From the NCBI RefSeq assembly GCF_903946935.1, contig NZ_CAJAXH010000161.1:1-53403 (forward strand): 53,403 bases of DNA, in the 5' to 3' direction. The stretch's first letter is position 1, and each line of letters opens with the position of its first letter. The DNA comes from an uncultured Thiodictyon sp. GTDB lineage: Bacteria > Pseudomonadota > Gammaproteobacteria > Chromatiales > Chromatiaceae. This document shows positions 2 through 7,118 of this stretch, piece after piece. The translations under genes were made by a program, and so were the position numbers. A model generated the notes under the pieces. That model did not search any database. It saw only the letters and a program-made list of their open reading frames with translations, and had not been told where the DNA came from.

Positions 2-2863
2 AACGCTGTTCGCGCAGGTGCTCCAGCGCATGCCGTTGCCTCCGTCACCAGCGCGCCGACGGCCCCGTCCGCCCAAGTCGTCCGCGCTCCTGCTGGTGGC
101 GGCGTAACCGGGGGTGGCCGGAACGATGATCAAGGCCCGGCGGGCGACTCCGTCGGCCGCGACCAGATCATCAATCAGTTTGCCGCGCCCGATGATCGGC
201 CCGAGCAACTCCTCTCCGCCTATTACCGCGACCTGGCCGCCGAGTGCAGCCGCCTGCCGCTCGGGGTGGTGGACCCGCGCTTTGCCCAGCCGGGCGCCCG
301 CACCGAGGTCGACCTACCGAGCGTCTATACCGATCTCCATGTGGTTGTGGTCCCGCGCGAGGAGGGCGAGGACGAGCGCCGCTACGGCCTACGCCTGGCC
401 CGCGCCGAGATGGGCGAGCGCACGGCGCTACTCGATGCAGTCACCGGCGAGCAGGGCGGGCGCCTGGTGCTGGTCGGCGATGCCGGCTCCGGCAAGAGCA
501 CCTTCGTCGACTACCTGACCTGGCGGCTGGCCAGCGCGGTCGTCGCCGGCACCCAGGCCGCATTGCCGCCCGCGCTGCGCACCCTGCTGCCCGTGCGTCT
601 GGTGCTGCGCCGGGCCGCCGCCGCCATCCCGGAAAACGGCGCAGCGGGGGATACCCTGTGGCGGGCGCTGGAGGCCGACTGCGTCCAGCGCCTGGGCCAG
701 AGCGCCGCCGCGCGCCTGTTTCCCTACCTCCAGGGGCGACTGCTCCACCAGGGCGCACTGATCCTGCTCGACGGCCTGGATGAGGTGCCGGAGTCCGGCG
801 CCCGCCGCGCCCACCTGCTGGAGTCGGTGCAGCGACTCGCCGCCGCCCTGCCCGCGGGCAGCCGGGTGCTGCTGACTGCCCGGCCCTATGCCTACGCCGA
901 CCCGCGCTGGCACCTCGCCGGCTTCAATGAGCTGGCCCTGGCCCCCTTCGACGCCGAGCAGGTGGCCGGCTTCATCGGCCACTGGTACCAGGCGGTCTGC
1001 CCGGTCATGGGCTGGGACGCGGCCACGGCCGAGCAGCGGGGCCGGGCGCTACGCGATGCCATTGCGCAGCGCGCCTACCTCGGTGATCTGGCCTCCCGCC
1101 CGCTGCTGCTGACCCTCATGGCCACCCTGCACAGCAGTTGGGGCCAACTCCCGCGCGACCGCGCCGACCTCTACGAGGAATCGGTCAAGCTGCTGCTGAC
1201 CCGCTGGCAGACCGGGCGCGAGGTCGCGGGGCCGGACGGGACCATCCTGCGCGAGCCAGGCATCGCCCGCGCCCTGGGTCTGGGCGAACAGACCCTGCGC
1301 CAGGCACTCGACCGGCTGGCCTTCGCGACGCACGAGGGCCAGGCGGCGCTCCCGGGGCGCGACGAGGCCCCGGCCGACATCGACCGCGGCCAGGTCATCG
1401 CCACCTTCGAGCGCCTCTGCCCACAGGACCTCAACCCCTGTGTATTGCTGGAGTATCTGGAAACCCGCGCCGGGCTGCTGATCGCCCGCCGGGAGGGCGT
1501 CTATGCCTTCCCGCACCGCTCCTTTCAGGAATATCTCGCCGCCTGTCACCTGGCCAATACCGCCCCCGATTTCGGTGCCGAGCTGCGCCGCCGGGTCTGG
1601 GCCGACCCCACCTGGTGGCGCGAGGTCTTCCTGCTCGGTGTCGGTAAGAAGCGCCAGGGCGGGCTGGCGGACGCCGTGAACCTGGTCAACACCCTGGTCC
1701 CCGCGAGCCCTGCCGACACCGAGGGGATCGGCGAGCGCCACTGGCAGGCCGCGGTACTCGGGGCCAAGGCGCTGCTGGACCTGGGCTTTCCCGGCACGGC
1801 CGCCGGTCAGGAACACTTTGAGGCCCCGCTGCGGCGCGTCCGCCGCTGGCTGGTGGACCTGCTCGGTCGCGGCGCCCTGCCGCCCAAGGAGCGACTGGAG
1901 GCTGGCGACCTGCTCGGGTTGCTCGGCGATCCCAGGCCCGGCGTCGGCGTCCACATTACGGCCCAGGGTGCAACCCTGCCCGATATCGACTGGTGCAATG
2001 TGCCGGTCGGCCCCTTTACCATCGGCAGCGAGGCGGGGGACACCGACGCCGCTGATGCCGAGCGCCCGGCCCATCCGCTATACCTGCCCGCTTTTCTCAT
2101 CGCCCGCTATCCGGTTACCAATCGCCAATTCCGGCCCTTCTTGGAGGCAGGCGGATACGATCAGGAGCGCTGGTGGACGTCCGAGGGCTGGGCCTGGCGC
2201 CAGGGTGCCACATCGGACCTTCCGGCAATCAAGGAGGCGGACCTAAGAAGGCAATACGCGGATTGGCTGGCGGGGCGTCCGAAGGGACGCCGCGATCGAC
2301 CCTACTGGTGGAGCGAGTCTCCCTGGAACGGGGCTAACCGCCCGGTCGTCGGCATCTCCTGGCACGAGGCGCTGGCCTACTCCCGCTGGCTCGAGTCGCA
2401 GTTCCAGGCTGAGCAGGCGGGGGTGCGGGTACGATTGCCCTCCGAGGCTGAATGGGAAAAGGCCGCCCGTGGTACCGAGGCCCGCCGCTGGTCCTGGGGC
2501 GACGGTTGGTTGGATGATCGCGCCAACACCGAGGGGGCGGGCCTCCAGACCTCGAGCCCGGTCGGCTGCTTCCCAGCCGGGGCCAGTCCCTGCGGCGCAC
2601 TCGACTTGATCGGAAATGTCCTGGAGTGGACGCGCTCACGGTGGGGTGGCGACATCGACCGGGCTGCCTTCGGTTACCCCTATGTCCCGGACGACGGCCG
2701 GGAGTCCCTTGCCGGACCCGACGCTCGGGTGGTGCGCGGCGGGTCGTGGCTCGCCCTGCCGTGGCAAGCGCGCTGTGCGCGCCGCTCCCGATTCGGTGTC
2801 GATAACTTCTACACCGATCTGGGTTTCCGTTTGGTGTTGTCCCTGGCGGATTCTGGATCCTGA
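2..2863 (+). CDS. NACHT NTPase with C-terminal FGE/SUMF1 domain, 5' end unresolved
   Basis: Predicted STAND/NLR-like NTPase, probably a defence sensor or switch. The first in-frame start is GTG at 266, but the frame is open to the left edge and contains a GDSVGRDQ motif at 143-166 that is shared with two neighbours, so the true start is probably outside the window or hidden by an indel. Counting from 266: Walker A GDAGSGKS at residues 71-78, Walker B LLDGLDE near 168-173, then a helical region with a TF(Q)EYLAA-type motif, and an FGE-sulfatase domain from about residue 570 to the end (VPVGPFTIGSE, PVTNRQF, RLPSEAEWE, VVRGGSW, GFRLV). In NACHT-FGE proteins the FGE fold is usually a ligand-binding module and not an enzyme. 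The C-terminus carries a hypervariable block (2750-2821) inside conserved flanks. The NACHT-FGE call is firm; the defence role is inference. Confidence 0.87.
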   Translation, partial: NAVRAGAPAHAVASVTSAPTAPSAQVVRAPAGGGVTGGGRNDDQGPAGDSVGRDQIINQFAAPDDRPEQLLSAYYRDLAAECSRLPLGVVDPRFAQPGARTEVDLPSVYTDLHVVVVPREEGEDERRYGLRLARAEMGERTALLDAVTGEQGGRLVLVGDAGSGKSTFVDYLTWRLASAVVAGTQAALPPALRTLLPVRLVLRRAAAAIPENGAAGDTLWRALEADCVQRLGQSAAARLFPYLQGRLLHQGALILLDGLDEVPESGARRAHLLESVQRLAAALPAGSRVLLTARPYAYADPRWHLAGFNELALAPFDAEQVAGFIGHWYQAVCPVMGWDAATAEQRGRALRDAIAQRAYLGDLASRPLLLTLMATLHSSWGQLPRDRADLYEESVKLLLTRWQTGREVAGPDGTILREPGIARALGLGEQTLRQALDRLAFATHEGQAALPGRDEAPADIDRGQVIATFERLCPQDLNPCVLLEYLETRAGLLIARREGVYAFPHRSFQEYLAACHLANTAPDFGAELRRRVWADPTWWREVFLLGVGKKRQGGLADAVNLVNTLVPASPADTEGIGERHWQAAVLGAKALLDLGFPGTAAGQEHFEAPLRRVRRWLVDLLGRGALPPKERLEAGDLLGLLGDPRPGVGVHITAQGATLPDIDWCNVPVGPFTIGSEAGDTDAADAERPAHPLYLPAFLIARYPVTNRQFRPFLEAGGYDQERWWTSEGWAWRQGATSDLPAIKEADLRRQYADWLAGRPKGRRDRPYWWSESPWNGANRPVVGISWHEALAYSRWLESQFQAEQAGVRVRLPSEAEWEKAARGTEARRWSWGDGWLDDRANTEGAGLQTSSPVGCFPAGASPCGALDLIGNVLEWTRSRWGGDIDRAAFGYPYVPDDGRESLAGPDARVVRGGSWLALPWQARCARRSRFGVDNFYTDLGFRLVLSLADSGS
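2729..2858 (+). repeat. Variable-region-like cassette in NACHT-FGE gene 1
   Basis: A 21-nt segment (2729-2749, coding VVRGGSW) is followed by 24 divergent codons (2750-2821) and a 37-nt segment (2822-2858, coding GFRLVLSLADSG). The flanks match those at 6819-6839 (20 of 21) and 6912-6948 (36 of 37), whereas 18 of the 24 encoded residues between them differ. This is the layout of a diversity-generating-retroelement variable region followed by an initiation-of-homing sequence. No template repeat or reverse transcriptase is in the window, so the assignment is inference. Confidence 0.5.
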
Positions 2864-2873
2864 TCCCCTATCT

Positions 2874-2898
2874 CGTAACACCGCTGCGCGGTGTTACG
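2874..2898. repeat. Perfect hairpin 10 nt after NACHT-FGE stop
   Basis: Arms CGTAACACCGC (2874-2884) and its complement (2888-2898) with a 3-nt loop. It may act as a terminator (no U-tract follows), as a dispersed palindrome, or as the cruciform found downstream of variable regions in diversity-generating retroelements. Confidence 0.6.
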
Positions 2899-3024
2899 CC
2901 TGTATCTGGCGCTCCGCGCCCAACGACCCGGCTGGCGCATAGGCCAAACCGGCCGGTGCGGTTCGTTCCTCACCGGCACCCTACAGGCGCCATCATTCCG
3001 ACCAGCGGCCCCACACTCATCTTC

Positions 3025-3088
3025 CTCTGCGTCTCCGCGTCTCTGCGTGAGTCAATACTGTCTCACGCAGAGACGCGGAGACGCAGAG
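3025..3088. repeat. 26-bp inverted repeat, 12-nt spacer
   Basis: Two perfect 26-nt complementary arms (3025-3050 and 3063-3088) built of the unit CTCTGCGTCTC, spacer 3051-3062. This is a REP-like dispersed palindrome in the gap 2864-3212 between NACHT-FGE gene 1 and the Rpn gene. No gene is seen in the gap. Confidence 0.85.
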
Positions 3089-3123
3089 AATGGGGAATTC
3101 CGGCTGATCCCTGGGGCGAGTGG

Positions 3124-3183
3124 CTGGAGTCCAAGGCTTCAGCCTTGGATGGACAGGACCAAGGCTGAAGCCTTGGACTCCAG
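3124..3183. repeat. 24-bp inverted repeat, 12-nt spacer
   Basis: Perfect 24-nt arms (3124-3147 and 3160-3183) around GGCTTCAGCC, spacer 3148-3159. It is a different sequence from the palindrome at 3025-3088 but has the same 12-nt spacer. It lies 30 nt past the stop of the Rpn gene, so it may also end that transcript. Confidence 0.85.
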
Positions 3184-3212
3184 GCGATGACCGCGGATCA
3201 AGGCCCATCGAT

Positions 3213-4148
3213 TCAATGCAGCACCGCCTCCAGGCTATCGGCCGTGAGGACGCGTTCGGACCAGCCCAGGAGCGTCTCGGGATCCGCCCCGGCGACCCGC
3301 CGACGGATGGACTCGTCCGGCGGGCCGAACTTGCGTTCGATCAGCCGTAACAGCATGGCGACCTCGCCTTGCTGTTTGCCCTGTTCGATATAGCGGTCGA
3401 TGAAGGTCTGCATGATTGGGTCTCCGGTAGAAGTCTGTTGCAGCAGCGTCCGCACGTCGCCTTCGCCGAGGGTCTGGGTGCCTTGGACATAGTAGCGAAG
3501 CAGGGATTCCAGGATGGTGAGCGCGGTGGTCTTGTCCTGTACCTGCTCGATCAAGGTCAGCAGTTCCCGCAGCCGCTCGATCGGCCGGTCGCTGAAGACC
3601 CAGCGTAGCGCCAATTGGACGAGTCGGGTCAACACCTCGCCCTTGATCTGCGCGTCGGTACGCTCGGACAGGTCGTGCAGGGCATAGGTGAATTGGGGAA
3701 CGAAGGGCGCCAGTGCCGGGGGTAGCGGTGCGACCAGATCGTGGAAGTTCAAAGGCGCGTGCCACTGCCGTTCGCCGTGGTAAATCACCAGGGGGAAGAT
3801 CGGAGGGAGTTGTCGGGCCGCGGGGTGCTGCTTGCGATACTGATCGCCCTCGGCGACGATATAACGCAGCAATTGCAGCAGGGTCCAATGCTCGGGGCTG
3901 CTCTTGTGCTCGAACAGCAGATAGATGACCAAGTCCGCGCCGCGATACTGCACGCGGTACACCAGATCCGAGTATGCCGAGCGCAGGTCCTTGGAGACAT
4001 AGGTGTCTTTGCAGATTTCCAAGGTCCCGAGGTCGATCTCGGCGAGGAGGTCGGCCGGCAGTTGGTTGCGAAGAAAGTCCTCTGCAACCTCCCGGCGACC
4101 GAACCCCTCACGGAAAAAGGCGTCATGGGGTGTGGCTAGGTTTTCCAT
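3213..4148 (-). CDS. Rpn family recombination-promoting nuclease / putative transposase
   Basis: About 311 aa, matching the PD-(D/E)XK Rpn/PDDEXK-transposase family (Transposase_31 type). Family hallmarks: N-terminal HDAFFRE, the core DLVYRV...VIYLLFEHKS giving the catalytic D...ExK signature, IVIYHG-like PLVIYHGE, and a C-terminal FIDRYIEQGKQQGEVAMLL helix. Rpn proteins are DNA endonucleases that promote RecA-independent recombination; many copies occur per genome in Chromatiaceae-like and cyanobacterial genomes. I chose ATG 4148 (MENLATPHDAFF) over the upstream TTG at 4184 because the family starts there. It sits between and opposite the two NACHT genes, with palindromes just past its 3' end. 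Confidence 0.88.
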   Translation of the reverse strand: MENLATPHDAFFREGFGRREVAEDFLRNQLPADLLAEIDLGTLEICKDTYVSKDLRSAYSDLVYRVQYRGADLVIYLLFEHKSSPEHWTLLQLLRYIVAEGDQYRKQHPAARQLPPIFPLVIYHGERQWHAPLNFHDLVAPLPPALAPFVPQFTYALHDLSERTDAQIKGEVLTRLVQLALRWVFSDRPIERLRELLTLIEQVQDKTTALTILESLLRYYVQGTQTLGEGDVRTLLQQTSTGDPIMQTFIDRYIEQGKQQGEVAMLLRLIERKFGPPDESIRRRVAGADPETLLGWSERVLTADSLEAVLH

Positions 4149-4270
4149 GGGCAAGAGGCTATTACGAATCTTCCCGCAGGGCAACCCGTCGCCACGGGCA
4201 CCGCCGGCGAGGCCGCGATCAGGTACACTTGGCAGGGATTCTTATCGGCAGCCCAGATAGAGACTCAGGC

Positions 4271-6968
4271 ATGACGAACAGCGTGGACACCGGCGGCGGG
4301 GCGCACATCGGCGGCAATGTGTCGTCCGGTCGCGATGTCGTCGGCCGTGACCAGTACAACCTGACCTTTGTCGGCGACCCGACCCCCCCGGGCCGACCCG
4401 GCCGACTATCTGGCGGCCCTCCTGAAGCACCCCGCTCACACGCCGTGGGCGCGGCGTTATGTGCCACTGGCCGGGGTGCTCACCGAGGTCCAGACGCCTG
4501 CCGACTGGGAGGACATCCCCCCTGAACTCACCCTCTTGGAGGCCAGCGGCGAGGGTGCCCAGCGTGAGGTGCGGCGCGTGCCGCTCCCCGACATCACGGC
4601 CGCGGTGGAGCGCAACCCAGCCTGGGTCCTGCTCGGCGAGCCGGGTTCCGGTAAGACCACCACCCTGCGGCGGCTGCTGATCGATCTGGCGCGCGAGCGC
4701 CTGGCGGCAGGGGCCGGCCCCGTGCCGCTGCTGCTGGCCCTGGGCGATTATCGGGACTATCCCTCGCCCCATGCCTTTGTCGCCGATTGCTGGCGCCGGC
4801 GGGTGGGCACCGCTGATCTGGATGCGCGGCTGCGCGCGGGCGGGGTCTTCCTGCTGGTCGATGCCTTAAACGAGATGCCCTTTCGCGATGCCGCGGACTA
4901 CCGGGCGCGCGTGGCGGCCTGGAAGCGCTTCGCCCGGGAGAAGTGGCCTGGCAACCGCATCGTGTTCACCTGCCGCGGGCGCGACTACAGCGCGCCCTTG
5001 GGTCTGCCCCAGGTGGAGATCGAGCGGCTGGATGATCCGCGGGTGCGCACCTTCCTCGAGCGCTATCTCAGTGCCGAGCTGGCCGCCGCGTCCTGGACCC
5101 GGCTGGCCGCCGCGCCGTTGCTGGACCTGGTGCGTAACCCCTTTTATCTCACAATCCTGTGCCGCCTGGTGGCCGCGGGCGCCGCCTGGCCGAGCGGGCG
5201 CGCGGCGCTGTTCAACGGCTTCGTGGCGACCTTGCTGGAGCGGGAGCCGGAGCGCAGCCACGCGGACTGGCCGGGCGCGCCCGCGGTGACCGCCGCGCTG
5301 GCGGTCCTGGCGGAGGGGATGCAGCGCCTGGGGGAGGGCACCCGGCTGCCGCGTGCCGAGGTGCTCAAACGCCTGCCGACGCGGGTGCAGACGCCGGATG
5401 GCCTGGTGGACCTGGACCCCAGGTCCATCCTGCGCCTGGGGCTCGCCGCCACCCTGCTGGACACCGAGGCGGACCCGCAGACGGGCGCGCCGGGCGGGCT
5501 GGTGCGCTTCTATCACCACCAGATCCAGGAGTTCTTTGCTGCGGCTGCCTTGCTGGAGGCGCAGCGCAGCGCCACGGATCTCGGCGACCGCTGGCGCTCC
5601 CCGCGTCTGAAGTCCGCGATGCCGGACCCGGGGCGGCTGGGCGACGACGAGCCACTGCCGCCGCCGCCCACCACCGGCTGGGAGGAACCGACCCTGCTGG
5701 CCGCCGGTCTCGCCCGGGACCCGGCGGCACTGATTGCGGCGGTGCGGGCGTGCAACCCGGTGCTGGCCGCGCGCTGTCTGGCGGAGCCGGGGGTCGCTCC
5801 GGCCCCGGGCGAGGTGGCGCCCACCCAGGCGGCGCTGCTGGCGGACCTCGGCAACCCGCGCATCCATGTGCGCGCCCGGATTGCGGCCGGGGAGGCGCTC
5901 GGGCGGCTGGGCGATCCGCGCTTTGCGGCGATCACGGTGGCGGGTGCCCGGGTGCTGCTGCCGCCCCTGGTCGAGGTCCCGGCGGGGGTGGTGCGGATGG
6001 GGTCATCCTGGTGGGAGGTCCGGCGGCTGGCCCGCAGTGGCCTTCGGGGCGGGGACGAGCGCCCCCGGCACCGGGTATCCTTGCCAGCCTTTGCCATCGG
6101 GCGCTTTCCGGTCACGAATGCCGAGTATGGTTGCTTCATGGCCGACGGTGGCTATGCGGATGAGCGTTGGTGGGATACCCAGCAGGCGCTGGCCTGGCGG
6201 CGGGGGGAGCTCAAGTCGGAGGTGGTGGACGAATGGCTCGGGACCTGGCGGGCGGTCAAGGCCGATCCGGGCCTGATGAAGCGGTGGGGTTGGAGCGAGT
6301 ACAACATCGCCCTATGGACACCGACCTTGACGCTGGAAGAGGCCGATCTTCGCGCTATCCTTGAGAATGAAGGCGCCGAGCGGCCCATGGATCGCCCCGC
6401 GTACTGGACGGACGAGCGCTTTGCCAACCCGGCACAGCCGGTGGTGGGTGTCACCTGGTTCGAGGCGCGCGCCTACTGCCGCTGGCTCACCGAGCGCTGG
6501 CGTGCCGCGGGGGATCAGTCCGTGCTGCCCGCGGGCGTCTTGGTGCGGCTGCCGACCGAGGCCGAGTGGGAACGCGCCGCGCGCCTGGGTTCCAGCCGCC
6601 GCTTCCCCTGGGGCAACCGCTGGGACCCCGAGCTGGCCAATACCACTGAGGGGCAGGTGCTGCGTACCACCCCAGTGGGCGCCTATCCGCAGGGGGCGAG
6701 CGCCGCCGGAGTCCAGGACCTCGCGGGCAACGGCTGGGAGTGGTGCGCGAGCCTCTATCGCGATTATCCGATCCGACCCGGCGATGGGCGCGACGATCCG
6801 GTGGCCGAGGGGCACCGCGTGGTGCGCGGCGGGTCCTGGATCAATCCTTCGAGGCTCGCGCGCTCGGCGTCCCGCTTCCGGTACGTCCCCGTGGACTTCT
6901 TTAGGAATGTTGGTTTCCGGTTGGTGTTGTCCCTGGCGGATTCTGGATACTGGACTTCTGGTTTCTGA
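4271..6968 (+). CDS. NACHT-FGE protein, frame broken by a C7 run
   Basis: The N-terminus (ATG 4271: GGGAHIGGNV, SGRDVVGRDQ) reads in one frame and the rest (from about 4391, DPADYLAALL) in the next; deleting one C of the C7 run 4383-4389 joins them. The downstream frame alone could start only at a TTG (4368) inside the first part. Counting from 4368: Walker A GEPGSGKT at 90-97, Walker B LLVDALNE at 162-169 (Asn in place of one acidic residue), a helical region with HHQIQEFFAAA, and an FGE/SUMF1 domain from about 534 (VEVPAGVVRMG, PVTNAEYGCF, RLPTEAEWER, VVRGGSW, GFRLV). It is a paralogue of the protein ending at 2863, roughly half identical in the FGE part, with a divergent block at 6840-6911. 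The break may be a sequencing error, a slippage switch or a real mutation. The role as NLR-like sensor is inference. Confidence 0.82.
6819..6948 (+). repeat. Variable-region-like cassette in NACHT-FGE gene 2
   Basis: Counterpart of 2729-2858: conserved 21-nt lead (6819-6839), 24 divergent codons without gaps (6840-6911) and the 37-nt tail 6912-6948 that differs from the other copy at one base. The reading frame then continues for six residues (YWTSGF) before the stop. Confidence 0.5.
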
Positions 6969-6990
6969 TCCGGCCTGTTTTCTGATCTTT

Positions 6991-7094
6991 CTCGTTCCCA
7001 CGCTCCCGCGTGGGAATGCCGTGCGGGCGCTCCGCGTCCGGTCTCGCCCCGGACGCGGAGCGCCCGCTCTTGCTCCCACGCAGGAGCGTGGGAG
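6991..7094. repeat. Nested GC-rich palindromes
   Basis: Three stacked structures lie between the NACHT-FGE stop and the next gene: a 9-bp hairpin 6995-7003/7008-7016 with loop TCCC; a perfect 19-bp inverted repeat 7023-7041/7049-7067 with 7-nt loop; and an outer pair TCCCACGCTCC (6996-7006) with its complement at 7083-7093. It is probably a dispersed REP/MITE-like element and a likely transcriptional roadblock. Confidence 0.8.
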
Positions 7095-7118
7095 CCAGTT
7101 GCAATTGCAGGAGATGAT

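Follow-up and report, generated by a model that had tools for sequence, protein, structure and literature searches.

The stretch of DNA analysed here (the window) comprises 53,403 nucleotides of an uncultured Thiodictyon sp. (Chromatiaceae), a purple sulfur bacterium, and forms contig C161 of a 6.0-Mb draft assembly (G000) in 321 contigs, whose completeness is given as 99.96%. Two genes in its first part, W1 and W2, encode putative sensor proteins carrying a NACHT domain (PF05729) and an FGE-sulfatase domain, both over the Pfam cut-off in either protein (Table 1). The open frame of W1 corresponds to 953 amino acids and extends upstream of the start listed; the true starts of both genes are uncertain. 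The FGE-sulfatase domain reaches residue 857 of 865 in W1 and 853 of 866 in W2 and includes a block of 24 codons that differs between the two genes. Judged by sequence, the blocks lie at the C-terminal end of this predicted C-type-lectin/FGE fold, between the motifs RGGSW and GFR. The FGE region of W2 matches variable protein 1 of Treponema denticola (PDB 2y3c) at E 1.9e-8, which we take to be a variable protein of a diversity-generating retroelement (DGR), from another phylum and without a NACHT domain. In a DGR, an error-prone reverse transcriptase (RT) and the accessory protein Avd copy a template with random bases placed at adenines, and the cDNA replaces the variable block of the target. 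An initial annotation of the window had proposed W1 and W2 as targets of such an element.

W1 and W2 have in common a 137-nt segment (2726-2862 and 6816-6952) of 74% identity, a pairing with E = 4.8e-19 in the whole assembly. The 5' flank of the block (2729-2749 versus 6819-6839) is identical at 20 of 21 bases and the 3' flank (2822-2858 versus 6912-6948) at 36 of 37. In between, only 5 of the 24 codons are identical and 18 of the 24 residues differ. These counts and positions agree with the annotation, as do its numbers of differences at first and third codon positions (9 and 10); at second positions we count 12 instead of 11. In the same register, identity outside the segment is 32% over 300 nt upstream and 29% over 100 nt downstream, and the match therefore starts and ends abruptly. 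The remainder of the two genes gave one further DNA match at E <= 1e-6 (51 nt, 80%), and a pattern of the 3' tail, with up to 3 mismatches allowed, occurs in the assembly at two places only, the tails of W1 and W2. Since 10 of the 24 third positions differ, a recent rewriting of both blocks from one shared template is excluded; the annotation had rightly cautioned that a single A-only template cannot account for such changes, and the point is an important one.

A complete DGR of the same class was identified in another genus of the Chromatiaceae. The family-wide search covered 210 genomes, with the corresponding segment of a second Thiodictyon genome (G003) as query and at most 4 candidates scored per genome, and gave matches at E <= 1e-5 in 7 of the 210. 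Contig C120 of one of them, G067, carries in a row a NACHT-FGE target, an RT, an Avd and a template; after them comes a further NACHT gene, truncated where the contig stops. The target resembles the window genes in its NACHT-FGE architecture, 24-codon block and tail coding for VLSLA. Unlike the window class, the element is complete, and its target is identical to the template at all 46 non-adenine bases and mismatches it at 16 of the 26 adenines. A target on contig C139 of the same genome mismatches the C120 template at 19/26 adenines and 2/46 other bases, and a second template-like copy on C139 at 19/26 and 5/46. Both the anatomy and the adenine signature of a DGR are thus present in G067. 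Homology between templates and targets begins there just before RGGSW, at about the place where the match of W1 and W2 begins, and ends after GTGGTGTTGTCC. Past GTGGTGTTGTCC the targets continue with CTGG and the templates do not; the window tail continues over the same stretch.

The columns that vary among the blocks of W1, W2 and their G003 orthologues (G3a and G3b, respectively) fall predominantly on adenines of the G067 template, 24 of 26 adenine columns being variable versus 20 of 46 others (descriptive p 2.6e-5). The excess is also seen at first and second codon positions only (24/26 versus 7/22; p 1.4e-5) and among W2, G3a and G3b without W1 (22/26 versus 11/46). Compared directly with the G067 template, W1 mismatches 19 and W2 17 of the 26 adenines, an enrichment at these bases.

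G003 is the closest genome with the same gene pair, both genes being in the same order, and the orthologues are 85.8% (W1/G3a) and 77.9% (W2/G3b) identical. Among the 72-nt windows of the W1/G3a alignment, the block has the lowest identity (58%), and the neighbouring windows have 85% and 96%. The W2/G3b block has 61% identity; 8% of the windows are equally low or lower, owing to a stretch rich in indels (6192-6407). Changes at first and second codon positions affect 20 of 48 sites in the W1 block and 21 of 48 in the W2 block, against ~12% and ~14% upstream (p ~1e-5 each). Divergence of the orthologues peaks locally in the block, where these two codon positions are changed at roughly three times the upstream frequency. 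The 138-nt segment of W2 shares 84% identity with its counterpart in the non-orthologous G3a, and elsewhere the two genes match in just two short stretches (120 nt, 69%; 51 nt, 80%), a sign that the segment is mobile between loci. Among W2, G3a and G3b, the non-adenine columns show 6, 9 and 8 differences in 46, and W1 stands apart (13-16); the last rewriting of W1 may have drawn on a different template allele or may lie far back in time.

The 3' tail is conserved beyond the genus. Over the 36 nt that follow the block, W1 and W2 differ at 1 position, W2 and an orphan block of G175 (another genus) at 1, and W1 and the G175 block at 2, although the 464-nt alignment of W2 and G175 around the tail is 69% identical. 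None of the 12 third positions of the tail differs between W2 and G175 versus 9 of 24 in the block. The annotation had remarked that protein constraint alone would not keep such DNA identity past the end of the FGE fold. A core, GTGTTGTCCCTGG, is common to all 8 aligned target tails, that of the C120 target in G067 among them. This conservation across genera fits a putative homing site, and the tail would then be comparable to an initiation of mutagenic homing (IMH) sequence, the 3' homing element. In another genome, G185, the W2-like gene has a stop within the RGGSW stretch. A TCTG-rich tract overlaps the W2 tail (6933-6948) and runs on past its end.

The annotation had placed the DGR responsible for these blocks elsewhere in the same genome. 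No cognate template was found in the assembly, either with W1 as query (all 37 candidates scored) or in the family-wide search (4 of 44 scored); a template of the class is present in G067. A closer template in the window's own genome should have shown, because a search of this type recovered that of G067 at E 1.3e-11. Exact tail patterns, which include target-only bases and could therefore miss a template, were found among genome contigs only at the two known places (Thiodictyon D14_bin-1308 contig) and not in viral contigs; a gapped template pattern, itself narrow, had no match in G000 or G003. No cognate template was found in G003 among 15 of 63 candidates scored in one search and 4 of 47 in another. 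In G175, a genome in two contigs, 4 of 26 candidates were scored, and those matching at E <= 1e-5 were the orphan block plus a template and a target belonging to a different class; that template is mismatched by the orphan block at 17/46 non-adenine bases and by two targets of its own class at 1/46 each.

Nor was an intact DGR RT found in the assembly, where the matches were a C-terminal part of a DGR-type RT on contig C287 and a 35-position fragment on C308; C141 had a PF00078 match at E 0.99. An RT on C319 matched the DGR-RT alignment at E 3.0e-25, yet it was rejected as it has QG..LSP instead of the SQ motif, presumably the mark of DGR RTs. It lies in a 672-amino-acid frame (L001, 97-2112) with a long N-terminal part, which we take to resemble a CRISPR-associated Cas6-RT fusion. 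Another candidate, the PF00078 match on C69, was likewise rejected (LSP motif, no match to the DGR-RT alignment at E <= 0.01). tblastn with the RT and Avd of G067 gave nothing at E <= 1 in the window, including the 1.5-kb gap between the two genes, and the Avd had no match in the window or C287, the two places where it was sought. The annotation had named the lack of a template and RT, together with variable positions away from template adenines, as evidence against a DGR: neither a cognate template nor an intact RT was found in the assembly, yet the variable columns fall predominantly on adenines of the G067 template.

As an alternative, the cognate template and RT could fall in an assembly gap, with rewriting of the targets still going on. 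The assembly is in 321 pieces, the tail is conserved across genera beyond protein need as if still in use, and for their DGR 3 Dore et al. (2024; PMC10907252, main text) describe some strains whose RT is intact and others in which it is interrupted. The high completeness given for the assembly, the lack of a cognate template among the scored candidates of G003 and G175 and the third-position differences, which exclude recent rewriting by one shared template, make a draft gap rather unlikely. Because the tail is kept at the DNA level in genomes seemingly without a cognate template or RT, we also consider, tentatively and with similarly modest expectation, that W1 and W2 may be maintained as receptive docking sites, rewritten intermittently by DGR machinery that is transferred horizontally or present in some cells only.

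The assembly yielded a single DGR template. It lies on contig C287 (L057, 5222-6830) and reads NNHRDNARGAYRNRNQPGNRNNNL in translation; with it on the contig are nearby targets and the C-terminal RT part. Two targets on C287 mismatch this template at 19/25 and 11/25 adenines and at none of the 47 other bases, a clear and recent DGR signature, and a target on contig C216, which fits in trans, mismatches 17/25 adenines and 1/47 others. The fit is poorer for two blocks of a similar kind, one on C230 and L052 on C287, with 10 and 8 mismatches at the 47 non-adenine bases. The C287 element, whose RT remnant is the best DGR-type match in the assembly and whose template fits a target on another contig, could in principle rewrite W1 and W2 in trans as well. 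As the source of the blocks its template was ruled out by 21 (W1) and 22 (W2) mismatches at the 47 non-adenine bases, and only the RT could still act; relative to its G067 counterpart, this RT is missing roughly the N-terminal 214 residues, and the 3' tails of the two classes differ. An action of the C287 element on the window genes is therefore extremely improbable. With its template, which is of another class, used as a mask, 21 of 23 adenine columns vary among W1, W2, G3a and G3b at first and second positions versus 10 of 25 others. At ~6660-7730 of L057, on the minus strand, a NACHT gene seems to lead into a variable repeat that lies in a different reading frame, as though the FGE part of the gene had been lost by deletion.

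FGE-sulfatase genes are numerous in both Thiodictyon genomes (42 matches in G000 and 49 in G003), and many have the RGGSW-24 codons-GFR ends, with several tail classes. From 30 loci per genome, 23 and 28 blocks were obtained; of 14 reciprocal best pairs, 12 had 72-nt blocks on both sides and were compared, the other 2, with unequal block lengths, being left out. Five pairs other than the window's showed an adenine-column excess under the C287 mask at p <= 0.008 (L027/L113, L044/L137, both L045/L138 pairs and L050/L142). Three pairs, picked as conserved-block controls only after the table had been seen, have few differences by codon position (1, 0, 5; 3, 1, 2; 6, 2, 8), no peak of change and no excess at template-adenine columns. 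Two pairs, L037/L133 and L039/L127, are variable with no clear adenine-column excess (C287 mask, p 0.20 and 0.12; second mask, 0.21 and 0.03).

A further class has its template on contig C120 of G003. Two FGE targets on contig C242 of G000 (L045, 1367-3436) each agree with it at 50 of the 51 non-adenine bases, and a target on C151 of the same assembly at 48 of 51; over the 300 nt upstream of the C242 blocks, the two genomes diverge by 24% and 13%. No template was seen in the first 3.6 kb of C242, and tblastn with the G003 RT gave no credible match there. Between C242 and G003 C120, 1 of 24 third positions differs per block, with 40% and 21% upstream (p 0.0005 and 0.07).

In the window and C287 classes, a TCTG-rich tract lies where the variable repeat ends and beyond that point (window 2846-2941 and 6936-7031; L036, L048, L126, L134, L137). 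TCTG is present 2-5 times per 96 nt in 7 of 9 blocks of these classes (L044 has 0 and L052 has 1), with an expectation of 0.2 per 84 nt, and 0-1 times in 40 of the remaining 42 of 51 blocks, the exceptions being L132 (3) and L138_1 (2).

Taken together, the W1 and W2 blocks are most probably variable repeats of a DGR class acting on the C-terminal FGE domain of NACHT proteins, and the two genes orphan, probably idle, targets. Of the annotation's proposal, the DGR-type variable repeats are supported by the cognate DGR in G067, the variation at template-adenine columns and the peak of change between orthologues; present-day service by a DGR of the same genome is not supported. In this class, the cDNA would replace the block between RGGSW and the fixed 3' tail. 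Diversification of W1 and W2 probably took place at an earlier time, from two or more template alleles, and the genes may now be idle, or served by a copy missing from the draft. Several observations weigh against this reading. W1 and W2 alone give a weak signal, with 15/26 adenine columns of the G067 template differing versus 16/46 others (p 0.051) and, with the C287 mask at first and second positions, 13/23 versus 8/25 (p 0.08). Each mismatches the G067 template at 12/46 non-adenine columns, so that their differences are not confined to adenines. Third positions changed between orthologues at 10/24 (W1) and 7/24 (W2) sites, much like the background (28% for W1, 31% for W2; p 0.22 and 1) and unlike the 1/24 of each C242 pair; L044/L137, with a C287-type tail, likewise has 12/24 third positions different. 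A tail that is kept while the block drifts is poorly explained by a long-dead target. Finally, the case is built on comparison between assemblies rather than within populations, and its p-values are descriptive, as the compared sequences share ancestry.

The many third-position changes, above all in W1, and the weak adenine signal of the pair could also arise with no DGR ever involved, from diversifying selection on an FGE ligand-binding loop and gene conversion of its ends, and L037/L133 and L039/L127 indicate that variable blocks need not always be DGR-made. Against such an origin, the variable columns coincide with the adenines of an external cognate template, the abrupt ends lie approximately at the template/target boundaries, three other FGE orthologue pairs have conserved blocks and a related genus has a complete DGR of the same class. 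We therefore consider it improbable and favour the orphan-target reading.

The 1.5-kb gap between W1 and W2 contains palindromes and an Rpn-type nuclease/transposase gene (Transposase_31, PF04754, E 4.3e-50; 3213-4184, minus strand); in G003, only ~0.5 kb separates the aligned parts of the two NACHT-FGE genes. A similar imperfect inverted repeat around CGTTCCCACGCTCCCGCGTGGGA lies beside DGR parts both in the window (6991-7098) and in L057 (~6484-6590), resembling by appearance a miniature inverted-repeat transposable element (MITE). PADLOC gave no match for W1 and one weak match for W2 (mad8, E 2.6e-5), and Rfam at gathering thresholds had none in the window.

Table 1. Coordinates of the window genes, their variable repeats and the related DGR of G067.
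Feature	Sequence	Position	Strand	Remarks
W1, NACHT-FGE gene, putative sensor protein of DGR-target type	Window	266..2863	+	NACHT E 1.7e-9; FGE-sulfatase E 1.5e-49
Variable repeat 1, 5' part, codes VVRGGSW	Window	2726..2749	+	W1/W2 match starts here
W1 variable block, 24 codons	Window	2750..2821	+	31/72 bases differ from W2
Variable repeat 1, 3' template-homologous part (GFR..VLS)	Window	2822..2842	+	G067 template/target homology stops after GTGGTGTTGTCC
Variable repeat 1, target-only 3' tail, codes LADSG, putatively homing-site-like	Window	2843..2858	+	Absent from G067 templates
W2, second NACHT-FGE gene, DGR-target type	Window	4368..6968	+	NACHT E 1.5e-9; FGE-sulfatase E 1.3e-53
Variable repeat 2, 5' part	Window	6816..6839	+	W1/W2 match; G067 comparison
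W2 variable block, 24 codons	Window	6840..6911	+	Compared with G3a, G3b and G067 template
Variable repeat 2, 3' template-homologous part	Window	6912..6932	+	G067 target/template comparison
Variable repeat 2, target-only 3' tail, putatively homing-site-like	Window	6933..6948	+	Absent from G067 templates
NACHT-FGE target	G067 C120	730-3573		
RT	G067 C120	3612-4676		
Avd	G067 C120	4682-5044		NF033474 (NCBIfam) and bAvd, both over cut-off
Template	G067 C120	homology ends ~5187		

DGRs acting on NACHT proteins have been described before. In the purple sulfur bacterium Thiohalocapsa PB-PSB1, nine DGR loci with NACHT/STAND-CLec targets are described, including degenerate loci and targets served in trans, and a function in antigen sensing has been proposed; for aggregate-forming bacteria, it is further proposed that DGR-diversified NACHT sensors provide a kind of adaptive immunity (Dore et al., 2024, PMC10907252, main text). 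As described there, the variable repeat lies in the C-terminal CLec/FGE domain of a NACHT protein, targets are paired at one locus, and a genome contains several classes, degenerate loci without RT or template, and MITE-like repeats nearby, as is the case here. Unlike those DGRs, the window class has an assembly in which neither an RT nor a template belonging to it was found, and it is known here from sequence alone. The machinery-less state as such is already described for other loci in that paper, and the window pair fits an extension of this known kind to Thiodictyon, a genus that its main text does not name; one search of a literature library joining Thiodictyon with diversity-generating retroelement found no paper. 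By analogy with this literature, the W1 and W2 proteins would most likely be STAND-type sensors whose FGE end binds a ligand, perhaps of phage. The target class can be traced across Chromatiaceae genera with its machinery either present (G067) or not found (the window genome, G003 and G175), and the fate of DGR targets after loss of the machinery thus becomes testable by comparing genomes and strains.

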